From the IMG/VR virus record IMGVR_UViG_3300025570_000114, positions 1 through 23,821 of that record: a DNA stretch of 23,821 nt. The stretch is one strand, 5' to 3'. Below the pieces are notes generated by a model, which was given only the letters and a program-made list of their open reading frames with translations, ran no database searches and was not told the origin of the DNA. The translations under genes and the position numbers were made by a program. Positions 3,324-14,663 of the stretch are shown piece after piece. Source of the stretch: a virus. Each line of letters starts with the position of its first letter. Positions within the stretch are counted from its first letter, which is position 1.

Positions 3324-3346
3324 AAAAAGCCCCCCTTTCGGGGGGC
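3324..3346. terminator. Strong GC hairpin after ssb; minus-strand terminator shape
   Basis: GCCCCCC (3329-3335) pairs perfectly with GGGGGGC (3340-3346) around TTTC. On the + strand it is followed by AAACC, not T residues; on the minus strand it is followed by five T residues. It therefore looks like a textbook intrinsic terminator for leftward transcription, although no leftward gene was found. For rightward transcripts it may act as a 3'-end stabiliser or pause. Confidence 0.6.
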
Positions 3347-3409
3347 AAACCATAGGAGGTTGTCGATCGGGGGAACCGACCAAACAAATATAACATAGGA
3401 TTTAATGCA

Positions 3410-3622
3410 ATGAAATTAATACACGTAGGCAAATGCGTAGTAGCCGCCCAAGAACTTAAAGGAATCACTAGCGTGGAGTTTGCTAAAATAGCAAAGACCT
3501 CCCCTCAACAAGTATTACGTTGGCGCACTCAATCCAATATGAAACTGCACACTATTCAGCGCGTATGTGATGCTTTAGATATAAGCCTAGAGTCTTTTAT
3601 AACTTTTGGGTATAAGGTTTAG
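3410..3622 (+). CDS. Cro/C1-type HTH transcriptional regulator (70 aa)
   Basis: The 70-residue product is a single XRE-family helix-turn-helix domain. TSVEFAKIAKTSPQQVLRWR spans the recognition region at about residues 20-39, and TIQRVCDALDISLESF is the usual fourth and fifth helices. There is no cleavage or dimerisation domain as in full-length CI, so it resembles Cro or small phage regulators. A TAGGAT motif precedes the ATG at 3410. An inverted repeat TTTAC-N6-GTAAA begins two bases after its stop and overlaps a promoter, so it may control the region directly downstream. Whether it sets a lysogeny switch is unknown because no integrase or opposing repressor is present. Confidence 0.8.
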   Translation: MKLIHVGKCVVAAQELKGITSVEFAKIAKTSPQQVLRWRTQSNMKLHTIQRVCDALDISLESFITFGYKV

Positions 3623-3623
3623 G

Positions 3624-3639
3624 TTTACCTTTTTGTAAA
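3624..3639. promoter_or_regulatory. Inverted repeat TTTAC-N6-GTAAA, candidate operator
   Basis: A 16-bp inverted repeat with 5-bp arms (3624-3628 and 3635-3639) lies immediately after the XRE gene and overlaps the -35 of the promoter at 3633-3661. The same half-sites occur as a fused palindrome at 3843-3854. It is a candidate binding site for the adjacent regulator. Confidence 0.4.
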
Positions 3640-3661
3640 AATGATTTTTAATTAATACAGT
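3633..3661 (+). promoter_or_regulatory. Promoter in front of structured segment
   Basis: TTGTAA (3633-3638), a 17-bp spacer and TACAGT (3656-3661) form a plausible sigma70 promoter (4/6 in each box). The predicted start, 6-8 bases after the -10, falls at the GGG (3666-3668) that opens the foldable segment. It overlaps the candidate operator at 3624-3639. Confidence 0.45.
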
Positions 3662-3665
3662 ATTC

Positions 3666-3842
3666 GGGCTAGAGCAGATATGAATTGACATATCCCTTCG
3701 GGTGGCGAACTCCCTAACAGAATGCCATAGACGCGGTTGACCCTCCGCACATAGCCCCTAATAGAGATCGGTTTCTCTTGATGGATAGTTTGGCGATACG
3801 ATACGAATACGAATTAACCGCTGAGTCGCATAGCCCTCAGAT
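3666..3842 (+). ncRNA. Candidate structured RNA (unknown family)
   Basis: No ORF of note exists here, but the segment is rich in pairing. GGGCTA (3666-3671) is complementary to TAGCCC (3752-3757) and would close a multibranch domain. Inside are GATATG/CATATC (3677-3682 with 3689-3694), TGGC/GCCA (3703-3706 with 3724-3727) and GCGG/CCGC (3733-3736 with 3745-3748). Beyond are AGAGA/TCTCT (3763-3767 with 3774-3778) and CTGAG/CTCAG (3821-3825 with 3836-3840). A second TAGCCC at 3831-3836 could compete for GGGCTA. The arrangement is faintly tRNA-like but lacks a T-loop GTTCRA, anticodon arm and CCA. No intrinsic terminator is evident, so it could be an sRNA or the 5' leader of the gene at 3976. 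The 3' limit is a guess. Confidence 0.35.
3796..3812 (+). repeat. Short ATACG(A) tandem repeats
   Basis: ATACG occurs three times at 3796, 3801 and 3807 (periods of 5 and 6 bp), giving a GATACGATACGAATACGA run. This may be a protein-binding cluster or a degenerate iteron, followed downstream by an A-rich tract (3885-3930). Confidence 0.5.
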
Positions 3843-3854
3843 CGTAAATTTACG
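3843..3854. promoter_or_regulatory. Perfect 12-bp palindrome, candidate operator
   Basis: CGTAAATTTACG is a perfect palindrome; a further half-site CGTAAA lies at 3863-3868. It shares GTAAA/TTTAC arms with the inverted repeat at 3624-3639 and sits upstream of the promoter at 3892. Confidence 0.45.
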
Positions 3855-3891
3855 GAAACAGTCGTAAAAGGGTTAAAACGTCTTTTAAAAA

Positions 3892-3919: not shown

Positions 3920-3975
3920 AAGAAACAATTTATCAATAAAACGGGCGAGGCTTGACCGAGCCATAGGAGATAAAA

Positions 3976-14637: not shown

Positions 14638-14663
14638 GCCCCTTCTTCGGAGGGGGCTTTCTT
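14638..14663 (+). terminator. Strong intrinsic terminator after major capsid gene
   Basis: GCCCCTTC (14638-14645) pairs with GAGGGGGC (14650-14657), one G-T pair, around a TTCG tetraloop, followed by TTTCTT. The 8-bp stem with a UUCG loop is very stable. It probably reduces read-through so that capsid outnumbers downstream products. Confidence 0.8.

Follow-up and report, generated by a model that had tools for sequence, protein, structure and literature searches.

A conserved structured RNA family behind a Cro-like gene in uncultured marine phages

A structured non-coding RNA of about 215 nt (3660-3876, + strand) was identified in the gap 3' of a Cro-like gene in a marine phage, and comparison with homologues revealed compensatory changes backing nine helices, a long-range pseudoknot included. 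The window, i.e., the whole stretch of DNA analysed, comprises the 23,821 bases of an IMG/VR virus record; the Cro-like gene (3410-3622) is separated from the one that follows (3976) by 353 bases without a convincing gene. Besides the window, at least 155 contigs of uncultured viruses in IMG/VR carry homologues, a count in which the same population may be represented by more than one fragment, and the shape of the RNA is kept while its letters change. That a conserved structured RNA family exists is virtually certain, and each single mechanism is held at well below an even chance.

Relatives of the nearby SSB gene yielded 17 loci, several of which keep the gap with graded divergence, and a pattern derived from the most conserved block retrieved at least 119 contigs; among the pattern-matched contigs, L055 lacked the fold. 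The window scored 173.4 bits (E 1.6e-49) against covariance model R1, of which it is one of the constituent sequences, and 157.7 bits against model R2, which was built without it. All family features (P1, P2, P3, P3b, P4, PK1, P5, P6, and the tail) are present in the window (Table 1). The covariation alignment comprised 39 diverse members, below about 94% identity, in which 94.2% of pair cells were kept. Changes on both sides were found in 35 of 55 pairs, compared with a shuffled mean of 22; double-change cells numbered 297 versus 82 in shuffles and at most 40 with the partner slid; and the covariation score was 0.387 versus 0.153 shuffled and at most 0.070 slid by 1-3 columns. None of 500 shuffles reached 35 pairs or attained the observed value on any measure. 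A structured RNA beside a Cro-like regulator had been proposed from the window's letters alone (the sequence-only reading), with covariance among homologues as a suggested check, and the homologues strongly bear it out. Moreover, RNAalifold, run unguided, recovered most of the nested helices. The single-sequence folding energy of 3660-3876 was the same as that of shuffled sequence (z -0.13), so that such folding is no evidence on its own and the support is comparative.

Table 1. Coordinates of the RNA, its elements and the neighbouring features in the window
Feature	Position	Strand	Basis or remark
Cro-like HTH regulator gene, 70 aa	3410-3622	+	ORF; Pfam HTH_26, E 6.6e-07
Promoter-like TTTACC (3624-3629)-N17-TTTAAT (3647-3652)	3624-3652	+	Position conserved in homologues
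Structured RNA, whole conserved domain	3660-3876	+	Covariance model match (reported 3657-3876); 39-sequence covariation
P1 5' strand GTATTCG	3660-3666	+	Both-side changes in 6/7 pairs
P1 3' strand CGAATAC	3804-3810	+	Pairs with 3660-3666; 39-sequence covariation
P2 5' strand GGCTA (outer stem of the sequence-only reading)	3667-3671	+	Compensated as GGTGT/GCACC in type II
P2 3' strand TAGCC	3752-3756	+	Type II compensation
Extra hairpin GATATG...CATATC, subtype-specific	3677-3694	+	Homologue alignment
P3 hairpin, GTGGCG/TGCCAT here, CTGACG/CGTCAG elsewhere	3702-3728 (strands 3702-3707/3723-3728)	+	Both-side changes in 5/6 pairs
P3b hairpin GCGG-TTGACCCT-CCGC, near-invariant loop TGACCC	3733-3748 (strands 3733-3736/3745-3748)	+	Closing pair UA/CG/GC, AU in type II
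P4 hairpin with pseudoknot loop	3757-3784	+	10 pairs changed on both sides
PK1 5' strand CGGTT	3769-3773	+	Seven complementary allele pairs in the family
Mini-hairpin GT...AC; GG/CC, GA/TC elsewhere	3788-3799	+	39-sequence covariation
PK1 3' strand AACCG	3816-3820	+	Pairs with 3769-3773; covariation in types I and II
P5 hairpin CTGAG...CTCAG	3821-3840 (strands 3821-3825/3836-3840)	+	Both-side changes in 3/5 pairs
P6 hairpin TTTACG...CGTAAA	3849-3868 (strands 3849-3854/3863-3868)	+	Homologue alignment and type II
Conserved 3' tail AAAGGGTT	3867-3874	+	CCC/GGG core invariant, no covariation
GGGCGAGGCTTGACCGAGCC and ATAGGAG before the next gene (3976)	3944-3968	+	Found at the corresponding position in many homologous loci

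The comparison shows a predicted architecture in which P1 closes a domain holding P2, P3, P3b, P4, and the mini-hairpin, followed by P5, P6, and the tail. P2 is invariant across type I except at its inner end, the extra hairpin is present in the window and in L027, L033, L057, L083, L096, and L125 and missing from other members, and another domain takes the place of the mini-hairpin in type II. As judged from homologues, PK1 links the P4 loop to the strand just 3' of P1, locking the domain. Its alleles are CGGTT/AACCG, CGGTA/TACCG, CGATT/AATCG, TGGTT/AACCA, CAGTG/CACTG, CAGCA/TGCTG, and TGACT/AGTCA, with L035 and its near copies as an exception in which PK1 is shifted and P5 lost. PK1 is not part of the covariance model, yet type II shows TGACT/AGTCA, and there the pseudoknot holds in 98.6% of cells, with double changes in all five pairs.

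A second pseudoknot, PK2, may form between the tail and loop 3740-3744; its core (loop CCC, tail GGG) is invariant and the flanking positions vary on one side only. The first search pattern required GGTTGACCCTCC, which belongs to P3b, and CATRGCC, and AAAGGGT was used to trim the training set, so that the invariance of these motifs in the 39 members is partly built in, and PK2 (CCC/GGG) is accordingly retained as a candidate interaction. Types found by other routes vary there, including L153-L155 with TTGCCCCT, type II with TGACCCC, and L071 with AAAGGGG. The minimum-energy fold pairs the AACC strand with the GGGTTAA tail; this was rejected because the tail is constant and the other strand changes. 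Also discarded was an anti-Shine-Dalgarno reading of the CTCCTTA loop, a sequence that differs between members and is missing from type II and from the BcepC6B-like group.

Compared with this architecture, the sequence-only reading was correct in part. Its GGGCTA (3666-3671)/TAGCCC (3752-3757) stem and three hairpins are real helices in homologues, but the RNA is longer, and the proposed ends at 3756 and 3842 gave way to a domain running from about 3660 to 3876 with P1, the pseudoknot, and two 3' hairpins. The second TAGCCC (3831-3836), taken as the partner in a switch between two folds, is present in the P5 loop, but homologues carry GTCCC, TTGCCC, AAACCC, or TATCCC in its place, and the switch is thus not conserved. 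P1, the pseudoknot, P5 and P6, the subtype hairpin at 3677-3694, and the wide distribution go beyond that reading. Its remaining statements, that no known RNA family is recognised and that any likeness to a tRNA is superficial, agree with the searches: Rfam 15 gave no match in the window at the gathering threshold and chance-level matches only for four members searched permissively, and ARAGORN detected no tRNA or tmRNA gene in the window. Furthermore, the RNA was not found in 50,697 cultured-phage records, plasmids, or GTDB species genomes at the sensitivity used, the phage and plasmid searches returning chance fragments only, and it is absent from the cultured or isolate-type relatives HTVC111P, HTVC026P, DSL-LC06, Vibrio phage 1.240.O, and BcepC6B. 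Host assignment by a scan of GTDB genomes was abandoned, as all 11 pattern matches were due to chance and lacked the fold. The family appears to be previously undescribed; no description was found in the literature searched, and supplementary lists of candidate structured RNAs from virus collections could include it.

A divergent form, type II, was reached through relatives of the downstream exonuclease, among which L163, outside the model set, carries a divergent RNA of the same fold (77.7 bits). A pattern derived from L163 retrieved 41 contigs, 34 of them with type II RNA (76-96 bits), in which the architecture is kept and the letters are new. For distant relatives sharing the exonuclease gene, many of whose records are fragments, a broader model matched nothing but one fragment at the edge of a contig. 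The same or almost the same Cro and promoter sequences precede either type, as in L080, L132, and L139 (type I), which have both in common with L314 (type II), suggesting that RNA types are exchanged as cassettes under one Cro/operator unit. Recombination between two type II alleles was also observed in L343 (352-579), whose 5' half resembles L313 and whose 3' half resembles L311.

The Cro-like gene belongs to cluster 0, present in 96 of the 123 sources examined. At most loci TTTACT-like and TATAAT-like hexamers lie 17 bases apart and end about 7 bases before P1; a minority have a different upstream region from which the usual promoter is absent. A search with an upstream-only pattern, containing no RNA base but the first, retrieved 20 contigs, and the RNA was present at one register in all 20, with type II forms in several, which argues for a promoter belonging to the RNA. 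An own promoter had already been read from the window as TTGTAA (3633)-N17-TACAGT (3656) with a start at GGG 3666; a promoter-like sequence does exist and both strings are present, but the conserved element is TTTACC-N17-TTTAAT, which leaves that start unsupported and suggests one near G3660. Mantel analysis of 89 loci gave an r of 0.50 between Cro and promoter similarity, which may reflect linkage because the two adjoin, and 0.26 between RNA and promoter similarity. This closer tracking of the promoter by Cro, together with the same Cro and promoter before both RNA types, suggests control by Cro. Operator dyads in the promoter region showed a mild excess only (p<=0.1 for 35% of the 37 promoter types). 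Upstream of the RNA in L027 and L136, three to four direct repeats of ~10 bases (GTGTCTTATA, CGTCTGATAA type) replace the usual promoter and are possible operator arrays. In many phages, the first gene behind the RNA is preceded by a small hairpin rich in G+C, GGCGAGGCTTGCCGAGCC or a near variant, and then ATAGGAG, and a comparable hairpin with CATAGGAG lies ahead of cro in the window (3329-3358).

The RNA was found in three genomic contexts. In the main group, whose portal and terminase are about 50% identical to those of Pelagibacter phage HTVC111P, the Cro-like gene is directly upstream on the same strand at 87 of 100 loci, and the next gene, about 86 nt away, is on the same strand in 102 of 102; this first downstream gene varies by phage (clusters 21, 23, 17, 25, 18, 42, and others), and no clear intrinsic terminator lies between it and the RNA. 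Seven further loci have inverted upstream genes, so that the RNA starts divergently from them; in L065, L066, and L127 the inverted block includes cro, giving a lambda-like divergent layout. In the third, BcepC6B-like group, whose terminase shares about 50% identity with that of Burkholderia phage BcepC6B, the RNA lies on the strand opposite to both neighbours (8/8 and 7/7), and + strand genes further on have their own promoter (TATAAT). Many close relatives are without the RNA; no match was obtained in 22 related records of the BcepC6B-like group, which were picked by terminase similarity (about 89-97%) and searched over the whole record with the broader model, many of them being incomplete. 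A T-tract behind the RNA in this group was rejected as its terminator, since the same tract occurs in RNA-less relatives. Elsewhere in the window, a strong terminator-like hairpin, GCCCCTTCTTCGGAGGGGGC, with T-rich sequence lies behind the major head protein gene (14638-14657). In addition, a conserved site of the form C7-8 TCCCGAAG ... ATATATATG ... A9 (TerS strand) was noted beside a TerS-type gene in L026, L043, L049, L092, and L153-L155, ~65-290 nt behind the RNA, and in L233, L250, L260, and L304; it is perhaps a packaging (cos/pac) site.

The likeliest reading is an accessory RNA made early under Cro control, which would function as a folded molecule and would either be bound by a host factor in trans or ride on RNA polymerase like HK022 put. 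The former version is favoured tentatively, at somewhat less than an even chance: the RNA would be transcribed early from the promoter right behind cro under the control of the Cro-like protein and, least certain, the folded RNA would bind, in trans, a protein (or RNA) of the host or the phage in an accessory role and would not be a switch for the next gene. The conserved fold, the exchange of types, the patchy presence, and the autonomous unit in the BcepC6B-like group speak for an RNA whose effect lies in the molecule itself; its autonomy there is suggested by neighbours on the other strand and later + genes with their own TATAAT, and its accessory role by the 22 related records without it. 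It is possible, and held with less confidence, that the RNA represents a new class of phage RNA with allelic types exchangeable under cognate Cro operators, which, without a partner protein of its own, would target the host machinery of transcription, translation, or defence early in infection. The position at the start of the early transcript, as for putL behind PL (PMC9378689), also leaves open a put-like action, by analogy, in which the first-transcribed RNA would stay on RNA polymerase and confer resistance to downstream pauses and terminators. Such an action would fit with the constant placement on the early-gene strand in the main and inverted groups, a fold closed by the RNA's own 5' end, and the lack of a protein partner gene travelling with it; it is nevertheless rather unlikely, given that put is far smaller and folded differently (about 70 nt, two stem-loops, no pseudoknot; PMC9378689), that the window has no strong + strand intrinsic terminator from the RNA to about 9500, and that the RNA of the BcepC6B-like group points into an antisense region, with later + genes served by their own promoter.

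Leader, primer, and packaging readings fit less well. With a next gene invariably co-oriented and close by and no clear intrinsic terminator before it, a 5' leader is equally possible within the main group, where orientation says little because nearly all the genes are on one strand. Across the family, a riboswitch- or attenuator-like leader acting in cis on that gene is improbable, since that gene changes family from phage to phage and no common gene or pathway emerges downstream, the RNA is swapped independently, homologues do not keep the suggested alternative pairing through the second TAGCCC, and in one group neither neighbour shares the RNA's orientation. In the main group the RNA stands first in a replication-type operon, with an A+T-rich stretch behind it, as might suit a replication primer or origin RNA like ColE1 RNA II; this is quite improbable in view of the missing GC-skew switch at the RNA, the RNA-less records with very similar terminase, and the distance from replication genes in the BcepC6B-like group. 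A role in packaging or other late morphogenesis is hardly to be expected: in one group the RNA adjoins a conserved C-rich/T-rich site flanked by genes of the TerS and TerL sides, but that site is also present in relatives without the RNA, and the main-group RNA lies some 5.5 kb from the terminase genes.

Few structured RNAs of such complexity show clear pseudoknot covariation, and unusual functions have emerged for several of them. The present one occurs in many marine phage contigs and in at least two terminase lineages, and no cultured phage searched has it. Because it comes with a defined promoter, with allelic types that occur in nature, and with relatives that lack it, its function is open to direct testing.

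Among known systems, the EAR element of the Bacillus eps operon is likewise a pseudoknotted RNA, longer than 100 nt, for which an action on the transcription machinery has been proposed; unlike the RNA described here, which matched no Rfam family, it is not a phage element and is believed to be in Rfam. The P4 CI RNA and P22 sar are short antisense or immunity RNAs of phages that act by base pairing and share the setting in a regulatory region beside a repressor-type gene, whereas in the present RNA it is the fold, and apparently not a complementary target, that is conserved. GOLLD and ROOL are also structured RNAs of unknown function from phages or prophages, found through metagenomes, and both have Rfam profiles, ROOL with several pseudoknots (PMC12286853); they are about 660-800+ nt long and often near tRNA islands, whereas the window is without tRNA and gave no covariance match to either in the Rfam search. 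The put RNA of the lambdoid phage HK022 (putL/putR) antiterminates by way of the zinc-binding domain of the RNA polymerase beta' subunit. It is about 70 nt long with two stem-loops (PMC9378689), a size and shape that the RNA here does not have. Both are phage RNAs at the start of an early transcript, a predicted one in the present case, with a fold of their own and no evident partner protein, and the present RNA differs in its length of about 215 nt, nine covarying helices, 7-bp closing stem, and long-range pseudoknot.
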